Positions 18,779 through 28,479 of a DNA stretch of 64,000 nucleotides are shown here, in pieces. Under the pieces are notes generated by a model. That model was given only the letters and a program-made list of their open reading frames with translations, was not told the origin of the DNA and made no database searches. The first letter of the stretch is position 1, and the number at the start of each line of letters is the position of its first letter. The DNA lies in the NCBI RefSeq assembly GCF_014837235.1, contig NZ_JACYFT010000004.1, positions 74,883 to 138,882 of the forward strand, read 5' to 3'. This DNA comes from Limnohabitans radicicola. GTDB taxonomy: Bacteria > Pseudomonadota > Gammaproteobacteria > Burkholderiales > Burkholderiaceae_C. The position numbers and the translations under genes were made by a program.

Positions 18779-19849
18779 ATGAAAATCGCAGTCCTCCCCG
18801 GTGATGGCATCGGCACCGAAATCGTCGCCGAAGCCGTCAAAGTCCTGAACACGCTCGACCTCAAGTTCGAGATGGAAACCGCGCTGGTCGGCGGTGCCGC
18901 CTACGACGCTTATGGCCACCCCCTGCCCGAAGCCACGCTCAAGCTCGCGATGGATTCGGACGCGGTGCTGTTTGGCGCGGTGGGCGACTGGAAATACGAC
19001 AAGCTCGATCGCCCCCTGCGTCCTGAGCAGGCCATCCTGGGCCTGCGCAAGAACATGGGCCTGTTCGCCAACTTCCGCCCGGCCATCTGCTACGAGCAAC
19101 TGGTGGGCGCATCCAGCCTCAAGCCCGAGCTGATCGCGGGCCTGGACATCCTGATCATCCGCGAGCTGACCGGCGACATCTATTTTGGCCAGCCACGCGG
19201 TCGCCGTGTGGCCACCGACGGTCACTTTCCCGGCGCCGAGGAAGCGTTTGACACCATGCGCTACTCCAAGCCCGAGATCGAGCGCATCGCCCACGTCGCC
19301 TTCCAGGCCGCCCGCAAGCGCAACAAGCGCCTGACCAGCGTCGACAAGGCCAACGTGCTCGAAACCTTCCAGCTCTGGAAAGACGTGGTCACCGAAGTCG
19401 GCCAGCAGTACCCCGACGTGGCGCTGGACCACATGTACGTGGACAATGCGGCGATGCAGCTGGTCAAGGAACCCAAGCGCTTTGACGTGGTGGTGACCGG
19501 CAACATGTTCGGCGACATCCTGTCCGACGAAGCCTCCATGCTCACCGGGTCGATCGGCATGCTGCCCTCGGCCAGCCTGAACACGAAAAATCAGGGGCTG
19601 TACGAGCCCAGCCACGGCAGTGCCCCCGACATCGCGGGCAAAGGCATCGCCAACCCGCTGGCCACCATCCTGTCCGCCGCCATGATGCTGCGTTTCAGCC
19701 TGAATCAGGAAGAAGCCGCCCAGCGCATCGAAGCGGCTGTGCAAAAGGTGCTGGCCCAGGGCCTGCGCACTGGCGACATCTACAGCGAAGGCACCACCAA
19801 AGTCAGCACCCGCGAAATGGGTGATGCGGTGGTCAAGGCCCTCGGCTGA
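18779..19849 (+). CDS. leuB: 3-isopropylmalate dehydrogenase
   Basis: 356 residues; NAD-dependent oxidative decarboxylation of 3-isopropylmalate, the third leucine-specific step. Family motifs are [10 protein letters not shown] at the N-terminus, [21 protein letters not shown] near residue 80, [10 protein letters not shown] near residue 130, and [20 protein letters not shown] near residues 240-260 with the metal-binding aspartates. It ends the leuCDB unit; a strong terminator follows. Confidence 0.96.
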
Positions 19850-19925: not shown

Positions 19926-21680
19926 TCAGTGCTGCCCCATGCGCACCAGCCGCCCAGGGCGGGCCTCGGTGATCGTGCCGCCTTGCTGCACCGCCTCGCC
20001 CGCCACCCAGGTGGTCACATAGCCTTCGGCCTTTTGCACAAAGCGCTTGCCGCCTGCAGGCAAATCGCGCACCAACCGGGGAACGCCCACGCTCAGGCGG
20101 GCCGGGTCGATGGCATTCAGATCGGCCCGCATGCCCTCGGCGATCACGCCCCGGTCCGTCAAGCCCAGGTACCGTGCATTGCGGCTGGTGAGCATCTCCA
20201 CCGCGGTTTCGAGTGCGATGGCCTCACGCCCGCGGTCGCGCACCCAATGGGTGAGCATGAAGGTGGTGAAGCTGGCATCGCACACGGTGCCCACGTGCGC
20301 CCCCGCATCGCTCAGGCTGCTGAGTGCCCTGGGGTGCCCCAGCATGCGGCGCACCGTGTCGAGTGAGCCTTCGTTGTAGTTGAAGATCGGGAAGTAAATC
20401 AGGCCCGAACCATCGCCCGCACACAGGTGGTCGTAAATCACCGCCAAAGGCGAGACGCCCGCTTGCTTGGCGCGCACCAAGAAGCTCTGCATCACCGAGG
20501 GCTCGTAGTTGAGCGTGTCTTCGAGCGCGAACATGCGTCCGCTGATGAGGTCGATCTTGGCCAGCAGGATGTCCACCAGCGGCGGAATGGCGCTGCCGTC
20601 CCCGGCCAGGCGTTCGGACTTCTCGGACAGGATGCGCGCCTTGCGGGCCGGATCGCGCAGGGCTTCGGCCCGCTGCGCCAGCGGCAGGTGGGCCACCTCC
20701 TTGTAGGACGGGAAGCCCATGAAAGGGTGAAAGCTGGCGTCCAGCCCATTGATCACGCCGATGCCGCGCACGGCAGCCTGCATGTACAGGGGCAAACCGG
20801 CCTGGACGGCGGCCTCGACCCGCTGTTGGATCTTCAGGTACTGCTCACCGCCCGGGTCACGCTGCAACCAGGTCAGTGACACCGGCTTGCCGCTGGCCCG
20901 CGCCAGCGCCTCCACGCAATCGAACTCGGCGTCGAAGGGGTCCGGGCCGCTCAGCAGGTTGTAGTCGCTGACGATCTGGATCACCCCATGGTCCAAACCT
21001 TCAAAGGCCTGCGCCAGCCCGGTCAGCTCGTCGTGGCCTGCGTTGGCCGCAGGCGTGTCCTTGCCCTCGGAGGTGCGGTGGTTGTCGCTGCGCCCGGTGC
21101 TGAAACCGGCAGCGCCCGCCTGCAGCGCTTCGCGCAGCAGGGCCTGCATGGCCCGGATGTCGTCGGCATTGGCCTGCTCGTGGGCCTGCGCCCGCTCACC
21201 CATCACATACATGCGCAAGGGGTCGTGCGGCACCTGCACCAAGTAGTCCAGGCTGCGCGGCGTGGCCGCCAGCGCGTCCATGTACTGCGGAAAGGTCTCC
21301 CAGTTCCAGCGGATGCCTTCATGCAGTGCCGCGCCCGGGATGTCCTCCACACCTTCCATCAGCTTGATCAGATCGTCTTCATGACCGGGGCGTTTGGGCG
21401 CAAAACCCACACCGCAGTTGCCCATGACCAGGGTGGTCACACCGTGGTAAATGCTGGGTGTGAAGCACTCGTCCCAGGTCACTTGCCCGTCGTAGTGGGT
21501 GTGGATGTCCACAAAACCGGGAGTGATCCACAAACCTGTCGCGTCCAGGGTTTGCCGGGCGGGCTCGTCCACCTGGCCCACCGCCACAATGCGGCCGCCG
21601 CGCACCCCCACATCGGCCACACGCGCAGGCGCGCCCGTGCCGTCGACCACAGTGCCGTTTTTAATCAACCAGTCGAGCAT
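19926..21680 (-). CDS. D-aminoacylase-like amidohydrolase
   Basis: 584 residues of the amidohydrolase superfamily, N-acyl-D-amino-acid deacylase branch. The metal-binding HTHYDGQVTWDE is near residue 60, and GNCGVGFAP near residue 90 is typical of the D-aminoacylase subgroup. Further conserved segments are LSDAGAHVG near residue 450 and the C-terminal beta part ADLNAIDPARL. The family removes acyl groups from N-acyl-D-amino acids or related amides; the real substrate is unknown. It overlaps the upstream transporter gene by 20 bp, so the two are co-expressed. Confidence 0.82.
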   Translation of the reverse strand: MLDWLIKNGTVVDGTGAPARVADVGVRGGRIVAVGQVDEPARQTLDATGLWITPGFVDIHTHYDGQVTWDECFTPSIYHGVTTLVMGNCGVGFAPKRPGHEDDLIKLMEGVEDIPGAALHEGIRWNWETFPQYMDALAATPRSLDYLVQVPHDPLRMYVMGERAQAHEQANADDIRAMQALLREALQAGAAGFSTGRSDNHRTSEGKDTPAANAGHDELTGLAQAFEGLDHGVIQIVSDYNLLSGPDPFDAEFDCVEALARASGKPVSLTWLQRDPGGEQYLKIQQRVEAAVQAGLPLYMQAAVRGIGVINGLDASFHPFMGFPSYKEVAHLPLAQRAEALRDPARKARILSEKSERLAGDGSAIPPLVDILLAKIDLISGRMFALEDTLNYEPSVMQSFLVRAKQAGVSPLAVIYDHLCAGDGSGLIYFPIFNYNEGSLDTVRRMLGHPRALSSLSDAGAHVGTVCDASFTTFMLTHWVRDRGREAIALETAVEMLTSRNARYLGLTDRGVIAEGMRADLNAIDPARLSVGVPRLVRDLPAGGKRFVQKAEGYVTTWVAGEAVQQGGTITEARPGRLVRMGQH

Positions 21681-22536
21681 CTTTTCTTCTCCAATACAGG
21701 GCCAGGCCCATGCCGCTCACGATGTGCCAAATGCCCCACAGGCTGGCCAAAGTGACCATGCCCAAGTCGCTGCCAAACTGCACCGCGATGATGCCCAACG
21801 CCAGGCCCGAGTTCTGCATGCCGCCTTCGATCATGATGGCCCGGCGGTCGCGCTCGCTCACGCGCATGGCCTTGGCTGTGGCCCAGCCCAAAAACAGGCC
21901 GCTGGCATTGTGCAGCACCACCAGCAGCAAGGTGGGCAACAGGCCCAGAGTCAGCAATTGCCGCTCCTTGATGAGCCCCGCCACGATGAACAAAATCAAA
22001 GCGCCCACCGCAAAGTGGCCCAGCGGCTTGCGGATGCGCTCGGTCAGCGCTGGCAGCCGATGCGAGAAAACCAAACCCAACGCCAAGGGGATGCCCAGCA
22101 GCGCCACCTGACTCAGCCAGATACCGGACGGGTCGATCGACAGTTGGCGCAACCAAGACGCGGTTTCGGGGTTGGCCGCGATCATCCAGCTGAAGTTGAA
22201 GGGCGTGGCAAAGAGCGCGATCACACTGGCCACGGCCGAGATGCTGACCGACAGCGCGGTGTTGCCGCGCCCCATGTGGGTGACCACATTGCTCAGGCTG
22301 CCGCCGGGGCAAGCCGCCACCAAAATCATGGCCGCCTCGATGTTGGCGGGCAAATCCAGCACCAGCGTGGCAAGCCAAGTGCCCACAGGCAAGAGGATGA
22401 ACTGGGGGATCAGGCCGCACACCACGGCACGCGGGGTTTGGGCCACGCGCCGGAAGTCATCGATCCGCAGCTCCAGCGAGACAGAAAACACCATGGTCGC
22501 CAGCACCAGGCTCAAAATCAGTTGTTGTGTGGTCAT
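21661..22536 (-). CDS. Bile acid:sodium symporter (BASS) family transporter
   Basis: 291 residues, very hydrophobic, with about 9-10 transmembrane segments. Family-typical ACPGGSLSNVVTHMGRGNTALSVS is near residue 75 and EGGMQNSGLALGI near residue 240. These transporters move organic acids with Na+. The 20 bp overlap with the downstream D-aminoacylase-like gene suggests uptake of the enzyme's substrate or export of its product. The start is the ATG at 22536. Confidence 0.85.
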   Translation of the reverse strand: MTTQQLILSLVLATMVFSVSLELRIDDFRRVAQTPRAVVCGLIPQFILLPVGTWLATLVLDLPANIEAAMILVAACPGGSLSNVVTHMGRGNTALSVSISAVASVIALFATPFNFSWMIAANPETASWLRQLSIDPSGIWLSQVALLGIPLALGLVFSHRLPALTERIRKPLGHFAVGALILFIVAGLIKERQLLTLGLLPTLLLVVLHNASGLFLGWATAKAMRVSERDRRAIMIEGGMQNSGLALGIIAVQFGSDLGMVTLASLWGIWHIVSGMGLALYWRRKDARLVD

Positions 22537-22650
22537 GCGTGCTTCCTTTCAAAAAGTATAGACAACACCTGGACCCTGAGGGCAAAGGGTTTACGCGCAA
22601 GCGCCTGTCCCTGCGGCAAGGCCGCGTCAGGCTCATACAAGCCAATCCGG

Positions 22651-22656
22651 TACAAT
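22651..22656 (+). promoter_or_regulatory. Candidate -10 element for the asd leader
   Basis: TACAAT lies 8 nt before the leader-peptide ATG, so a transcript from it would begin almost at that ATG. No good -35 was found 16-18 nt upstream. No Shine-Dalgarno sequence precedes the ATG, which fits a leaderless transcript. Confidence 0.35.
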
Positions 22657-22664
22657 CCCACCCC

Positions 22665-22766
22665 ATGTTCCACGCCCACCTGTTCTGCCTGAACCTGACC
22701 GCTGCCGCTGCAGTGGCTGCCGGTGCGCGTGCAATCACCACCAAAACGACGACCATTAAGGGCTAA
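22665..22766 (+). CDS. Candidate Thr/Ile/Lys-rich leader peptide of asd (33 aa)
   Basis: A 33-codon ORF ending 90 bp before asd. Its C-terminal stretch is ITTKTTTIKG: codons 24-32 read Ile Thr Thr Lys Thr Thr Thr Ile Lys. Threonine, isoleucine and lysine are all made through aspartate semialdehyde, the product of asd. The Thr codons 28-30 overlap the first arm of a set of alternative hairpins. The N-terminal part is hydrophobic and Ala-rich. By analogy with thrL-type leaders this is read as a ribosome-stalling peptide; the analogy is an inference. Confidence 0.7.
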   Translation: MFHAHLFCLNLTAAAAVAAGARAITTKTTTIKG

Positions 22767-22836
22767 CGGCTCTGGTTCGTCGTGCGCCCTCCCCGGCCAG
22801 ACGAGCCGGGGCAAACAGTCAGGTCTCACACTGTTT
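22746..22836 (+). promoter_or_regulatory. Candidate attenuator with alternative hairpins upstream of asd
   Basis: Structure 1:2 pairs acgacga (22746-22752, Thr codons) with tcgtcgt (22777-22783). Structure 2:3 pairs 22769-22781 with 22800-22812 as 13 uninterrupted pairs, three of them G-U. Structure 3:4 pairs ccccggc (22791-22797) with gccgggg (22805-22811). Because 1:2 and 2:3 share bases, and 2:3 and 3:4 share bases, only some combinations can coexist. A further hairpin pairs aaacagt (22813-22819) with actgttt (22830-22836) just before the asd ribosome site. No U-tract follows 3:4, so Rho or translation control is possible. Confidence 0.6.
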
Positions 22837-22856
22837 AACTTTGAAAGGGCAATGAA

Positions 22857-23987
22857 ATGAGCAAGTTGGTAGGTTTGGTCGGCTGGCGCGGTATGGTCGG
22901 CTCGGTTCTGATGGACCGCATGATTCAGGAAAAAGACTTTGACCTGATCGAGCCCTTGTTCTTCTCCACATCGAATGCGGGCGGCAAAGCCCCCTCGATG
23001 GCCAAGAACGAAACCACGCTGCAAGACGCCTTCAACATCGAACAGCTCAAGCGCTGCGAGATCATCATCACGGCCCAGGGCGGCGACTACACCTCGGAAG
23101 TCTTCCCCAAGCTGCGCGCTGCCGGCTGGAATGGCCACTGGATCGACGCGGCATCGACCCTGCGCATGGAAAAAGACGCCGTGATCATTCTCGATCCGGT
23201 CAACATGCCCGTGATCAAGAACGCCTTGGCGCATGGCGGCAACAACTGGGTGGGCGGCAACTGCACCGTCTCCTGCATGTTGATGGGCGTGGGCGCCTTG
23301 TACAAAGCCGGTCTGGTCGAATGGATGAGCACCCAGACTTACCAAGCGGCATCCGGCGGCGGAGCACAACACATGCGCGAGCTGCTGACCCAATACGGCA
23401 CGCTCAACGCCGAAGTCAAAGCCCTGCTGGACGACCCCAAGAGCGCCATCCTCGAGATTGACCGCAAGGTGATCGCCAAGCAACGCGCCCTGACCGGTGC
23501 CGAGACCGCCAACTTTGGCGTGCCCCTGGGTGGCTCGCTGATCCCCTGGATCGACAAGGACCTGGGCAATGGCATGTCCAAGGAAGAGTGGAAAGGCATG
23601 GCCGAAACCAACAAGATCTTGGGGCTCGGCGAGGGCTTCAACTCCACCGCCATCCCGGTTGACGGTTTCTGCGTGCGTGTGGGTGCCATGCGCTGCCACA
23701 GCCAGGCCCTGACTTTCAAGCTCAAAAAAGACGTGCCCGTGGCCGACATCGAAGCCATGATCGCTGCCGACAACGAGTGGGTCAAAGTGGTGCCCAACAC
23801 CCGCGAAGCCACCATCCAAGACCTGACCCCTGTGGCCGTGACCGGCACCATGACCATCCCCGTGGGCCGTGTGCGCAAGCTGGCCATGGGCCCCGAATAC
23901 GTCGGCGCGTTCACCATCGGTGACCAGCTGCTGTGGGGCGCGGCCGAGCCGCTGCGCCGCATGCTGCGCATCTTGCTGGAAGCCTGA
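22857..23987 (+). CDS. asd: Aspartate-semialdehyde dehydrogenase
   Basis: 376 residues; reduces aspartyl phosphate to aspartate semialdehyde for Lys, Met, Thr and Ile and for diaminopimelate. [18 protein letters not shown] is the NADP motif at residues 4-21. The catalytic Cys is in [12 protein letters not shown] near residue 135, and [13 protein letters not shown] near residue 163. It is the gammaproteobacterial-type enzyme. The ribosome site AAAGGG precedes ATG 22857. truA begins 5 bp after the stop. Confidence 0.96.
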
Positions 23988-23992
23988 TTCCC

Positions 23993-24775
23993 ATGCGTTT
24001 GGCCTTGGGGGTCAGCTACAACGGCCAGCCTTATCTGGGCTGGCAAAGCCAACCCTCGGGCCAAACCATCCAGGACCAGCTCGAAAAAGCGCTGTCGCAG
24101 TTCTGCGACCAGCGCGTGCTCACCCACTGCGCAGGCCGCACCGACACGGGTGTGCACGGCTTGATGCAGGTGGTGCACCTGGACACCCCTTTGGCGCGCG
24201 ACATGCACTCCTGGGTGCGGGGCACCAACCGCTACCTGCCACCCGACATTGCCGTGCAATGGGCCCAGGAAATGCCGAGCGATTTCCATGCCCGGGGCAG
24301 CGCGGTGGCCCGGCGCTATGTGTACGTGCTGCTAGAATCGCCCGTGCGCCCTGCGCTCGAGTCGGGCCGGGTCGGCTGGTCCTTTCGCCCGCTCGACGAA
24401 GTCGCCATGCGCGAAGCCGCGCAGCACCTGCTGGGCGAGCACGACTTTTCTTCGTTTCGCGCCAGCGCCTGCCAGGCGCTCAGCCCGGTCAAGACGCTGC
24501 ACCGCATCGACATCCACCGCCGGGGGCCTTACTGGCGCTTCGAGTTCGAAGGCAACGCCTTTTTGCACCACATGATCCGCAACATCATGGGCTGTCTGGT
24601 CTATGTGGGCCAGGGCATGCACCCGCCCAGCTGGCTGCACGAGGTGATCGACGCACGCAGCCGCGATGCCGCAGCGCCCACCTTCTCACCCGATGGCCTG
24701 TATTTTGCGGGCCCGGTCTATGGGCCAGAATGGGGTCTGCCCACGACCACCCCGGCTTTTGACTGGCTGCCATGA
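23993..24775 (+). CDS. truA: tRNA pseudouridine(38-40) synthase TruA
   Basis: 260 residues; forms pseudouridine at tRNA positions 38-40. The catalytic Asp is in CAGRTDTGVHGLMQVVH near residue 50, and the RNA-binding FLHHMIRNIMGCLVYVG is near residue 190. The start is the ATG at 23993 (MRLALGVSYNG). Its stop overlaps the trpF start by 4 nt (ATGA). Confidence 0.95.
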   Translation: MRLALGVSYNGQPYLGWQSQPSGQTIQDQLEKALSQFCDQRVLTHCAGRTDTGVHGLMQVVHLDTPLARDMHSWVRGTNRYLPPDIAVQWAQEMPSDFHARGSAVARRYVYVLLESPVRPALESGRVGWSFRPLDEVAMREAAQHLLGEHDFSSFRASACQALSPVKTLHRIDIHRRGPYWRFEFEGNAFLHHMIRNIMGCLVYVGQGMHPPSWLHEVIDARSRDAAAPTFSPDGLYFAGPVYGPEWGLPTTTPAFDWLP

Positions 24776-25446
24776 GCAATCCACAACGCACCCGCATCAA
24801 AATGTGCGGCTTCACCCGCGAAGCCGATGTCGACGCCGCTGTTCAAGCGGGCGCCGACGCCATCGGCTTCGTGCTCTACCCGCCCAGCCCGCGCAACGTG
24901 CCCATCGAACGCGCCGCTGAGCTGGCCGCACGCTTGCCTGCCTTTGTCACGCCCGTGCTGCTGTTCGTCAACGACAGGCCCGAACGGATTGCCCAAGCCT
25001 GCGCTTCCGTGCCCGGCGCGGTGCTGCAGTTCCATGGCGACGAGACGCCCGAGTTTTGCGCCGCCATGAGCCTGGCCACAGGCCGCCCACACCTCAAAGC
25101 CGCCCGAATCCCCCTGGAATCGGCTGGCGACTTTGACTTGGTAAAATTTGCCCAATCCCACAGCACAGCCCAAGCCATATTGCTCGATGCCCATGTCGAC
25201 GGTTTTGGTGGCGGCGGAAAAACATTCCCTTGGTCACAGCTGCCTCCAAACGTCGAAGCTCACCTCGTTTTGTCTGGTGGACTCACACCTGCAAACGTGA
25301 CCGATGGCATTCGGACACTGCGCTCACACGGCCGCTCACTGGCCGTTGACGTGAGCTCGGGCATCGAAGCAGGCAAAGGCCTGAAAGATGCCGAAAAAAT
25401 GCAGCAGTTTGTCGCTGCCGTGCGCGCCGCCGACAACGCCTCCTGA
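24772..25446 (+). CDS. trpF: Phosphoribosylanthranilate isomerase
   Basis: 224 residues, a TIM barrel of tryptophan synthesis. [26 protein letters not shown] at the N-terminus contains the catalytic Cys, and the catalytic Asp lies in [18 protein letters not shown] near residue 140. The phosphate-binding end is [19 protein letters not shown]. It is translationally coupled to truA by ATGA. Confidence 0.95.
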
Positions 25447-25468
25447 AATCCGTTTTTCCAAGGTCACC

Positions 25469-26752
25469 ATGTACGACTACCAACAGCCCGATGCCAAGGG
25501 GCATTTCGGCATTTACGGCGGCAGCTTTGTGTCAGAGACGCTGACACATGCCATCAACGAGCTCAAAGACGCCTACGCCAAGTACCAGCACGACCCCGAA
25601 TTCATCGCCGAATTCAAGTCCGAGTTGGCGCATTTTGTGGGCCGCCCCTCCCCCGTCTACCACGCGGCCCGCATGAGCCGTGAGATGGGCGGCGCACAGA
25701 TCTTCCTCAAACGCGAAGACCTCAACCACACGGGTGCGCACAAGATCAACAACACCATCGGCCAAGCCATGCTCGCCAAGCGCATGGGCAAAACACGCAT
25801 CATTGCCGAGACCGGCGCGGGCCAGCACGGCGTGGCCACCGCCACCATCTGCGCCCGCTATGGGCTCGAATGTGTGGTCTACATGGGCAGCGAAGACGTC
25901 AAGCGCCAAAGCCCCAACGTCTATCGCATGAAACTGCTGGGCGCGACCGTGATTCCGGTCGAGTCGGGCAGCAAAACCCTCAAGGACGCCCTCAACGAAG
26001 CCATGCGTGACTGGGTCGCCAATGTGGACAACACCTTCTACATCATCGGCACCGTGGCGGGCCCGCACCCCTACCCCATGATGGTGCGCGACTTCCAAAG
26101 CGTGATCGGCGAAGAATGCCTCACGCAAATGCCCGAGATGTTTAAAAGCCTGCACATGGCGGAGCAGCAGCCCGACGCGGTCATTGCCTGCGTGGGTGGC
26201 GGCAGCAACGCCATGGGCATCTTCTACCCCTACATCGCCCACGAAAACACCCGTCTGATCGGCGTGGAAGCCGCAGGCGAAGGCATGGACTCCGGCAAGC
26301 ATTCCTGCTCGCTGCAGCTGGGCAGCCCCGGCGTGCTGCACGGCAACCGCACTTACATCCTGCAAGACGACAACGGCCAGATCACCGAAACCCACAGCGT
26401 GAGCGCGGGCCTGGACTACCCCGGTGTCGGTCCCGAACACGCCTTCCTCAAGGACATCGGCCGCGCCGAGTACGTGGGCATCACCGACAAGGAAGCGCTC
26501 GAGGCCTTCCACTACCTGTGCCGCACCGAGGGCATCATCCCTGCGCTCGAGTCGAGCCACGCCGTGGCTTACGCCATGAAGCTGGCCAAAACCCTGCGCA
26601 CTGACCAGTCGATCCTCGTCAACCTGTCGGGCCGTGGCGACAAGGACATCGGCACCGTGGCCGACCTGAGCCAGGCCGACTTCTATTGCCGTCCCAGCTG
26701 CCGCGGCCAGTCGGTCAAGGGCGGCGAGCAGCCCGTCAACATCGTGAAGTGA
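25469..26752 (+). CDS. trpB: Tryptophan synthase beta chain
   Basis: 427 residues, slightly longer than the common 400 because of a C-terminal tail ([16 protein letters not shown]). It condenses indole and serine using PLP. The PLP Lys is in [16 protein letters not shown] near residue 90, [14 protein letters not shown] is near residue 115, and the phosphate-binding glycines are in [10 protein letters not shown] near residue 240. The start is the ATG at 25469 ([14 protein letters not shown]). Confidence 0.96.
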
Positions 26753-26763
26753 GGGCTGTACAG

Positions 26764-27573
26764 ATGAGCCGCATTGACACCACCCTCTCCCAGCTCAAGG
26801 CCCAAGGCCGCAAGGCATTGATCCCTTTCGTGACCGCAGGCTTCCCCTTCGCAGACAGCACCCCTGCCCTGATGCACGCCATGGCAGGCGCGGGTGCCGA
26901 CATCATCGAGTTGGGGGTGCCGTTTTCCGACCCCTCGGCCGACGGCCCGGTGATCCAGAAGGCGGGCGACAAAGCTCTGGCCATGGGCATTGGCCTCGTG
27001 CAGGTGCTGGCCATGGTGCGAGAGTTCCGGCAGACCAACGCCAGCACCCCCGTGGTGCTGATGGGCTACGCCAACCCGGTGGAGCGTTACGACCAGAAGC
27101 ACGGCGCGGACAGCTTCATCCGCGATGCCTCTGCTGCGGGCGTGGACGGTGTGCTGATCGTGGATTACCCGCCTGAAGAATGTGTGGAATTCGCCGCCAA
27201 GCTGCGCGCCCACAGCATGGACCTGATTTTCTTGCTGGCACCCACCTCGACCGACGAACGCATGCAGCAAGTGGCCCGAGTCGCCAGCGGCTATGTGTAT
27301 TACGTGTCGCTCAAGGGCGTGACGGGTTCTGGCGCCCTGGACATCGACGCCGTGGAAGCCATGCTGCCGCGCATCCGCCAGCATGTGAGCGTGCCGGTGG
27401 GCGTGGGATTTGGCATCCGAGATGCGGCCACGGCCAAGGCGATTGGTCGCGTGGCCGACGCGGTGGTGATCGGTTCACGCCTGATCCAGCTGATCGAAAA
27501 CGAGCCGGCCGACCGGGTCAACACGGTCGCTGCCGACTTCCTGTCTGGCATCCGCCAGGCACTGGACGCCTGA
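26764..27573 (+). CDS. trpA: Tryptophan synthase alpha chain
   Basis: 269 residues; cleaves indole-3-glycerol phosphate to indole for Trp[13 protein letters not shown] near residue 20, with the catalytic Glu/Asp in [19 protein letters not shown] near residues 48-66. The phosphate-binding [11 protein letters not shown] is near residue 218. It starts 11 bp after trpB at the ATG at 26764 and is followed 33 bp later by accD. Confidence 0.96.
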
Positions 27574-27606
27574 ACGGCGATAATCCCAACTTAAGGAGAA
27601 ACCCGC

Positions 27607-28479
27607 ATGAGTTGGCTTGAAAAACTGCTGCCGCCCAAGATTGTTCACACCGACCCGGCCGACCGCCGCTCGGTGCCCGAGGGCCTGTGGATCAAATGCC
27701 CCAGCTGCGAGACCGTGCTGTACAAGAACGACCTCGAAGAAAACGTCAACGTCTGCCCCAGCTGTGGTCACCACCACCGCATTGGCGCACGTGCCCGCCT
27801 GAACGCCTTCCTCGACGGCGAAGGCCGCTATGAGATCGGCCAGGAAGTGGTGCCGGTCGACGCCCTCAAATTCAAGGACAGCCGAAAGTACCCCGAGCGC
27901 CTGAAAGAGGCCATGGACAACACCGGCGAGACCGACGCGCTGGTGGTCATGGGCGGTGCGGTGCAGAGCATCGAGCTGGTCGCGGCCTGCTTCGAGTTCG
28001 ACTTCATGGGCGGCTCCATGGGTTCGGTCGTGGGTGAGCGCTTTGTGCGTGGCGTCGAGACCGCCATCGAGCAAAAAGTGCCTTTCGTCTGCTTCACCGC
28101 CACAGGCGGCGCCCGCATGCAGGAAGGCCTGCTTTCGCTCATGCAGATGGCCAAAACCAATGCGGCCCTCACCCGTCTGGCCAAGAAAGGCCTGCCCTAC
28201 ATCAGCGTGCTGACCGACCCGACCATGGGTGGTGTGTCGGCCGGTTTTGCCTTTGTGGGTGACGTGGTGATCGCCGAGCCCAAGGCCCTGATCGGTTTTG
28301 CCGGCCCCCGCGTGATCGAGACCACCGTGCGCGTGACGCTGCCCGAGGGCTTCCAGCGTGCCGAGTTTTTGCAGACCAAGGGCGCCGTGGACTTCATCTG
28401 CGACCGCCGCGAGCTGCGCAAGACCATCTCCAGCGTGCTGGCAATGCTGCAGCGCCAAAGCGCCGACGCCGTCAGCTGA
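27607..28479 (+). CDS. accD: Acetyl-CoA carboxylase carboxyltransferase subunit beta
   Basis: 290 residues; with AccA it transfers CO2 from biotin to acetyl-CoA to form malonyl-CoA. The N-terminal zinc ribbon CPSCETVL...CPSCGHH is near residues 34-57. The crotonase-like carboxyltransferase core includes [19 protein letters not shown] and GFAGPRVIE. It is last in asd-truA-trpFBA-accD, has a strong AAGGAG ribosome site, and ends at a perfect terminator. Confidence 0.96.

Follow-up and report, generated by a model that had tools for sequence, protein, structure and literature searches.

A probable Thr/Ile/Lys attenuator upstream of asd in Limnohabitans and its relatives, whose leader peptide may also be the tail of LeuB

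Leader-peptide attenuators of the thr, trp, his and leu type are known from enterobacteria, where thrL of E. coli senses threonine together with isoleucine. In translational attenuators of the erm and cat type, and in the rtpA leader of B. subtilis, the position of a ribosome decides whether the Shine-Dalgarno (SD) sequence of the next gene is sequestered. A survey of proteobacterial attenuators by Vitreschak and others in 2004 is said to deal mainly with gamma- and alpha-proteobacteria, and reportedly names thr but not asd. Asd is an early enzyme, at a branch point, of lysine, threonine and isoleucine synthesis, with methionine as the fourth product of the pathway; its gene is also the one upstream of which the asd RNA motif RF01732 is located. 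In Sinorhizobium meliloti, the trpL leader ORF is described as lying at the extreme 5′ end of a leaderless mRNA and as acting by transcription attenuation on a Trp gene (PMC7298713). The LEU element of actinobacterial leuA is outlined as combining codons for the product with alternative RNA structures, including a stem that contains the Shine-Dalgarno box (PMC1262725). Finally, a table of candidate RNAs gives the asd RNA motif of Lactobacillales as RF01732 and enters the Burkholderiales-1 motif, from the same order as the present genome, as an ambiguous candidate with no Rfam number in that table (PMC2864571). Compared by its table line only, the Burkholderiales-1 motif could overlap the asd element described here.

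We analysed a stretch of 64,000 nucleotides from Limnohabitans radicicola (the window), in which an initial annotation made from the sequence alone had proposed a ribosome-read attenuator of asd with Thr/Ile/Lys codons. A conserved codon tail and covarying, mutually exclusive helices in relatives support that proposal. The sequence comparison shows a conserved element that very likely works by attenuation at Thr/Ile/Lys codons; a less certain but still probable reading is that a ribosome-mediated attenuator adjusts Asd production to how much charged Thr-, Ile- and Lys-tRNA is available, with translation initiation as the likeliest point of control. The element would resemble the enterobacterial attenuators in its short ORF, in its codons for pathway products near the stop, and in the use of ribosome position to pick one of two exclusive helices. 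It differs from them in that it controls asd, that Lys codons are added, that there is no terminator U-tract, and that the leader is often the end of LeuB. With S. meliloti trpL, as outlined in that account, it would share a 5′-terminal leader ORF before an amino acid gene, although leaderlessness is here predicted from the −10 box alone; unlike trpL, it does not precede a Trp gene and does not appear to use the transcription attenuation reported there. In the LEU element, on the description available, it is the run of codons that pairs with the SD, whereas a separate linker is predicted to do so here, and phylum, gene and structure differ as well. The principle would be that of the erm, cat and rtpA leaders, with Thr/Ile/Lys supply as the signal, read through the choice between helices 2:3 and 3:4. 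RF01732, as tabulated, comes from a different phylum, and the present element has no Rfam counterpart: none of the 4227 models matched positions 20000–26000 of the window up to an E value of 5, and in eight relatives the one hit was a sub-gathering match to an IRES family, 3′ of asd (L050, 5076–5173). We found no description of an asd leader peptide in this bacterial group in searches of an open-access collection with few subscription journals. The features of the locus, all on the forward strand, are as follows.

18779–19849, forward strand: leuB, ending without the Thr/Lys/Ile (T/K/I) tail borne by other family members
22651–22656, forward strand: −10 box TACAAT, 8 nt 5′ of the leader ATG
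22665–22766, forward strand: leader peptide ORF of 33 codons, ATG to TAA, read from the sequence and kept in relatives
22734–22760, forward strand: regulatory codons 24–32, Ile Thr Thr Lys Thr Thr Thr Ile Lys
22746–22752, forward strand: arm 1, pairing with 22777–22783 (7 Watson-Crick pairs)
22769–22781, forward strand: arm 2 of helix 2:3, pairing with 22800–22812 (predicted ON helix)
22786–22790, forward strand: anti-Shine-Dalgarno linker GCCCU, pairing with 22846–22850
22791–22797, forward strand: left arm of helix 3:4, pairing with 22805–22811 (predicted OFF hairpin, 7 Watson-Crick pairs)
22800–22812, forward strand: right arm, used whole by helix 2:3 and through 22805–22811 by helix 3:4
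22813–22836, forward strand: A/U-rich hairpin 5:6, 22813–22819 with 22830–22836, within the predicted OFF junction
22843–22850, forward strand: asd Shine-Dalgarno region GAAAGGGC
22857–23987, forward strand: asd, aspartate-semialdehyde dehydrogenase (NCBIfam asd_gamma equivalog), the controlled gene
23993–28479, forward strand: truA, trpF, trpB, trpA and accD, 3′ of asd

Direct reading confirmed that the 33-codon ORF is present as claimed. It encodes MFHAHLFCLNLTAAAAVAAGARAITTKTTTIKG, stops with the TAA at 22764–22766, and ends in ITTKTTTIKG; the nine residues from Ile to Lys are thus as first reported, but the final Gly had been omitted. A pair-by-pair check also bore out the three proposed helices, the 13 uninterrupted pairs of helix 2:3 including three G-U pairs, and the right arm of helix 3:4 being common to helix 2:3. 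By itself, this sequence hardly stands out from chance: a fold of 22764–22862 gave a z of −1.68, which is not significant and was equalled by 12 of 200 shuffles, and it is the comparison with relatives that carries the case. The identity of the controlled gene is clear (601.1 bits against the asd_gamma equivalog, cut-off 402.9), and the spacing of the genes downstream of it indicates a probable operon. Two minus-strand genes separate leuB from the leader; one encodes a BASS-type transporter (164.9 bits, under the model's cut-off) and the other a 584-residue protein with no NCBIfam match up to an E value of 1e-20.

For the comparison, Asd was searched in the window's family (matches in 147 of 150 genomes) and in a named genome collection, from which 80 of 589 loci were kept. 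The sequence 5′ of asd was examined in 110 of the 147 matched family genomes (leaving 37) and at the 80 named-collection loci; the two sets overlap partly, so that the resulting 190 loci are not independent species, and a count of genomes comes instead from the scan of 250 described below. A tail was scored when at least six of the last nine residues, in frame and directly before the stop, were Thr, Lys, Ile or Met. One row was dropped as a duplicate (L001, of L002). Such a tail was found in 152 of 181 distinct asd upstream regions from the family and its closest named relatives; none turned up in 905 dinucleotide shuffles or in the 181 reverse strands. The tail of the ORF, with its codons for products of the regulated pathway, is therefore conserved in content, with many exchanges among Thr, Lys and Ile. 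When the 190 loci were classified by tblastn, the tail was a C-terminal extension of LeuB in 66 and stood on a separate leader in 97, of which 52 directly follow a normally ended leuB. The remaining 27 have no tail of six in nine, including two with too little upstream sequence (L064 and L075, scored 'none' here and N in the tree below) and one with a degenerate leader and a tail of five in nine (L125, also scored 'none'). In the analyses of linker, SD and helix 1:2, the two forms were instead separated by whether LeuB-like residues precede the tail; we refer to them as LeuB-tail loci and free leaders.

Helix conservation was measured in alignment A1, which holds 77 diverse sequences of 79 representatives (L175 and L202 were left out). 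In helix 2:3, 83.9% of cells are paired and 7 of the 13 pairs show changes on both sides, one of these pairs being, for example, C-G 28 times and G-C 18 times. Its covariation score of 0.181 was reached by none of 500 shuffled versions (0.146) and by no slid version (maximum 0.103). For helix 3:4, 81.9% of cells are paired, both-side changes occur in 3 of 7 pairs, and the score is 0.116; among 500 shuffled versions (0.097) five scored as high, and the best slid version had 0.085; in both tests the shuffles leave the relatedness of the sequences in place. The number of pairs with both-side changes was matched by 22 of 500 shuffles for helix 2:3 and by 229 of 500 for helix 3:4. Slid versions had equally many such pairs for helix 2:3 and equally many or more for helix 3:4, with up to 25 both-side-change cells against 11 in helix 3:4 itself, so that support for helix 3:4 comes mainly from its paired fraction. 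The arms of these two mutually exclusive helices, which lie 3′ of the regulatory codons, therefore vary in relatives with compensation, as the initial annotation had suggested they should. Helix 1:2, the third hairpin it proposed, is present in the window and finds some support in free leaders, where it averages −13.9 kcal/mol against −12.5 for synonymous recodings, but falls within the lowest tenth of recodings in just 16 of 94; in LeuB-tail loci it has none (−9.7 against −10.8 kcal/mol when recoded, lowest tenth in 5 of 63). Support for helix 1:2 is thus weak and limited to free leaders. Another candidate, a stop-codon hairpin at 22761–22782, was dropped, as it averaged 4.68 pairs against 4.65 for swapped partners. 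In 146 of 157 loci, the last codon (GGC or AGC) and the U of the stop can nevertheless form at least four pairs with the 5′ portion of arm 2, a pairing that is kept across loci but without covariation.

A covariance model built on helix 2:3 (R1) matched 203 of 250 genomes of the window's family, and in 30 of the 30 genomes compared the match lay on the asd strand, 24–93 nt 5′ of the gene. In wider scans, R1 matched 9 of 200 genomes of the order, five of them in fact from the same family, and 3 of 185 genomes of the class, two of them from the same family; the remaining matches beyond the family look like weak, chance-like hits. The Limnohabitans genome itself has one extra match (E 0.8), and second matches with E values of 4e-4 to 0.009 occur in 6 of the 203 family genomes. 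One of these (genome G131, L260) is the same element truncated at a contig end after leuB, with 46 25-mers in common with that genome's asd leader. The other five, like the weak matches outside the family, have no convincing tail beside a relevant gene and were taken as chance.

Free leaders have a characteristic promoter. A box with A at position 2, T at position 6 and at least five of six matches to TACAAT or TATAAT was found in the searched range of 94 of 95 free leaders, and a TACAAT-like box lies 6–9 nt 5′ of the ATG in 90 of 94. Since that search took the best ATG and box per locus, the count of exact hexamers is the stricter one: TACAAT or TATAAT at a gap of 5–10 occurs in 77 of 94 free leaders and in 29 of 18,800 mononucleotide shuffles. 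For this sigma-70 box, no −35 consensus was found at spacings of 14–22, either in the window or in the free leaders. Transcription typically starts about 7 nt past a −10 box. In the window, the predicted start is therefore at about 22663, and not downstream of 22665, where it would have spoken against the leader; with the box 6–9 nt before the ATG, transcription should start on or just before that codon and the mRNA should be leaderless. The length of free leaders clusters at 33 codons (60 of 94), and 21 leaders that could not be placed in the MFAARPF type, mostly with unrelated N-termini, are still of 31–42 codons. In the relatives, the −10 box belongs to a longer conserved CATCCGCTACAAT, and GTCAG lies about 22 nt 5′ (22626–22656 and 72 free-leader loci). 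Given this conserved stretch and the lack of a −35 consensus, an activator or an unusual promoter may serve the free leaders.

From the conserved codons, the covarying exclusive helices, the linker:SD complementarity and the LeuB tails of the aligned sequences, we infer where transcription starts, that ribosomes stall, which state is ON and at which level control acts, as follows. On a free leader, transcription would begin at or just before the ATG and a ribosome would load on the leaderless mRNA. When Thr, Ile or Lys is scarce, it would stall on the regulatory codons and leave arm 2 free, so that helix 2:3 could form and trap the GCGCCC linker in its loop; the asd SD would then be open (ON). 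With ample amino acids, the ribosome would reach the stop codon and cover arm 2, the local hairpin 3:4 would form, and the freed linker would pair with the SD around hairpins 3:4 and 5:6 (OFF). In LeuB-tail members, the regulatory codons would be the last codons of leuB, and the ribosome finishing LeuB would be the sensor.

Folds of the window agree with much of this scheme. With a ribosome at the stop codon, helix 3:4 is predicted to be freed, as the initial annotation held (0.99), and SD openness is 0.43; in this state the SD sequence AGGGC (22846–22850) is predicted to pair with GCCCU (22786–22790), enclosing hairpins 3:4 and 5:6. A ribosome whose A site is at codon 28, 30 or 31 raises helix 2:3 to 0.89, 1.00 and 0.80 and SD openness to 0.74–0.78; linker:SD pairing in the 2:3 state, which would be a pseudoknot, lies outside what the folding program can score. 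The stalled folds are not all alike: with codon 24 or 26 in the A site helix 2:3 reaches just 0.27 and 0.23, and with codon 32 it reaches 0.01, so that a ribosome stalled on the final Lys would leave the element of the window unswitched. In the absence of a ribosome, helix 1:2 is at 0.89 and helix 3:4 at 0.99, yet the SD is open (0.82). Across loci, stalling is predicted to make the SD more accessible for 77 of 94 free leaders. Among LeuB-tail loci this is so in 31 of 63, with a mean of 0.447 when stalled and 0.458 at the stop.

The match between linker and SD was examined in 157 loci; the linker was placed by pattern and seems misplaced in five of them (L019, L025, L074, L116 and L180). Pairing to the locus's own SD averaged −11.92 kcal/mol, compared with −11.33 when linkers were swapped between species (0 of 200 swaps as low) and −9.09 for shuffled linkers, swaps and shuffles alike leaving relatedness in place; the advantage over swaps holds within each kind of leader too. 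Helices of at least five pairs including GG are possible in 125 of the 157 loci. Counting helices of any kind, 130 of 157 loci allow five or more pairs and 96 allow six or more, while in 785 random upstream stretches the numbers are 386 and 109. On the sequences, the stronger argument is not these counts but the matched changes specific to single species, such as CUCGCCCU:AGGGCGAG (L126), GCGCCU:AGGCGC (L142) and UUCGCC:GGCGAA (L163). In three LeuB-tail loci (L026, L155 and L159), the SD is barely matched by the linker. By eye, the linker of six LeuB-tail loci (L019, L024, L026, L028, L158 and L165) contains a CUGGACCCC-like stretch that can pair, wholly or partly, with a GGGGUCCGG-like stretch just 5′ of the start codon; this subgroup perhaps has a different expression platform.

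These data bear on the level at which asd is controlled. The geometry is that of trp and thr attenuators, and helix 3:4 (or 5:6) might instead terminate transcription before asd, through Rho or in an unusual intrinsic manner, with helix 2:3 as antiterminator. Such an arrangement would accommodate the LeuB-tail loci, whose output SD pairing does not explain, and a run of at least five T lies somewhere between helix 3:4 and the start codon in 42 of 148 leaders. On the other hand, a T-rich tract (at least six T in 10 nt) directly after helix 3:4, the mark of an intrinsic terminator with its GC hairpin and U-tract, occurs in 0 of 148 leaders (nine of the 157 loci, having no right-arm match, were excluded), and the window holds no terminator-like site, in line with the absence of a U-tract first noted there. 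Termination would also leave the linker:SD match unexplained, and a terminator could silence truA, trpFBA and accD too, since these lie on the same strand 3′ of asd. We therefore regard transcription attenuation as unlikely, though it is the most serious competitor. As there is no U-tract after helix 3:4 and the linker is complementary to the asd SD, control is probably translational; of the two end effects originally considered, Rho-dependent termination and an effect on asd translation, the latter fits better. On sequence and modelling grounds, control of asd at translation is favoured, less firmly than attenuation at the Thr/Ile/Lys codons as such, for free leaders but not for LeuB-tail loci.

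What the leader senses is suggested by the make-up of its tail. Between positions −9 and −2, the 158 tails that score five or more in nine comprise 1264 codons, of which 599 are Thr, 309 Lys and 234 Ile, or 1142 together. Codons starting with A number 1152, including one Asn, two AGC-Ser, seven Met and no Arg (AGR); Met codons are thus scarce (7 of 1264), even though methionine is a product of the pathway. There are 69 distinct eight-residue tails among the 158, with T, K and I permuted, which indicates that codon content is kept rather than one peptide. On these counts, the conserved feature is the set of amino acids made by Asd's pathway, minus Met. It is quite improbable that the C-terminal TKTTTIKG arrests the ribosome as a nascent peptide with its codon content incidental: this exact octamer is present in 41 of 94 free leaders, and 150 of the 158 tails end in Gly or Ser, but the order of T, K and I changes among the 69 octamers, the same cassette stands behind LeuB or unrelated N-termini, and the near lack of Asn, Arg and AGY-Ser codons fits amino acid supply. 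Still less plausible is a tail that senses not tRNA charging but the state of t6A, a threonine-derived modification of the tRNAs that read codons beginning with A. The 1152 of 1264 codons that start with A would suit such a sensor, but it would have no need to exclude Asn, Arg, AGY-Ser and Met codons, and these make up just 10 of the 1152.

The most surprising part is the proposed LeuB-tail sensor. In the outgroup (47 of 48 loci, L214 being a same-family genome), leuB directly precedes asd without a T/K/I tail in 43 of 47 loci, and LeuB ends within a few residues of MGDAVVAAL, as it does in the solved structure 4iwh. The tail borne by LeuB in many Comamonadaceae, Sphaerotilaceae and relatives therefore appears to lie beyond the ordinary end of the enzyme. 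A tree of 124 Asd proteins requires 33 changes among the three states (LeuB tail, free leader, none) and 20 for the LeuB-tail label alone, at least six of the latter forced by starred branches; this is a quick tree with many open forks, of a gene and not of species. Two pairs in it (L282/L283 and L289/L298) differ in form. The two forms thus appear to interchange, the cassette having switched several times. The separate leader starts 11–35 nt past the leuB stop in 8 of 51 adjacent cases, as if the tail had been cut loose by a new leuB stop codon, a promoter and an ATG. LeuB, a full-length metabolic enzyme, is with its Thr/Lys/Ile tail probably itself an attenuator leader peptide for asd, the sensing cassette having switched repeatedly to and from a leaderless mini-ORF of about 33 codons. 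That the whole has no regulatory role and is a conserved RNA or coding remnant simply inherited with the leuB-asd junction can practically be dismissed: the single-sequence fold is unremarkable (z −1.68), but tail and helices persist over about 66–100% Asd identity, compensatory changes included, with leuB adjacent or not and with altered N-termini.

If correct, this model implies amino acid control of a branch-point enzyme across a large freshwater and soil family, with three products of a branched pathway sensed simultaneously, and an attenuator whose sensor may be the tail of an upstream enzyme rather than a dedicated leader peptide. Such sensors may then hide in annotated genes and escape searches for short ORFs.

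The Asd proteins of the family themselves fall into two groups, one about 75–100% and the other about 65–75% identical to that of the window (L112–L125 and L181–L191 versus the rest), and the latter branches with other families in the tree. The leader precedes both, which suggests that asd was replaced under a regulator that was kept. Two contigs titled Akkermansia muciniphila and Singulisphaera (L039 and L070) carry asd loci that group with the window's family, and these assemblies are probably mis-binned or mis-titled. Finally, only two of the 47 outgroup loci have a Thr/Ile/Lys leader, both in family f14, and a third f14 genome has one too. These leaders (L202, 2623–2714; L220, from the same genome as L304; and L303, with its stop at about 1410) end in KRTTTIITKTVMKG, LSTTIITKKTKTTVLV and LSITTIITKKTKTIILV. 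Present in all three f14 genomes, with different hairpins, they represent either a distant relative of the element described here or a convergent attenuator.
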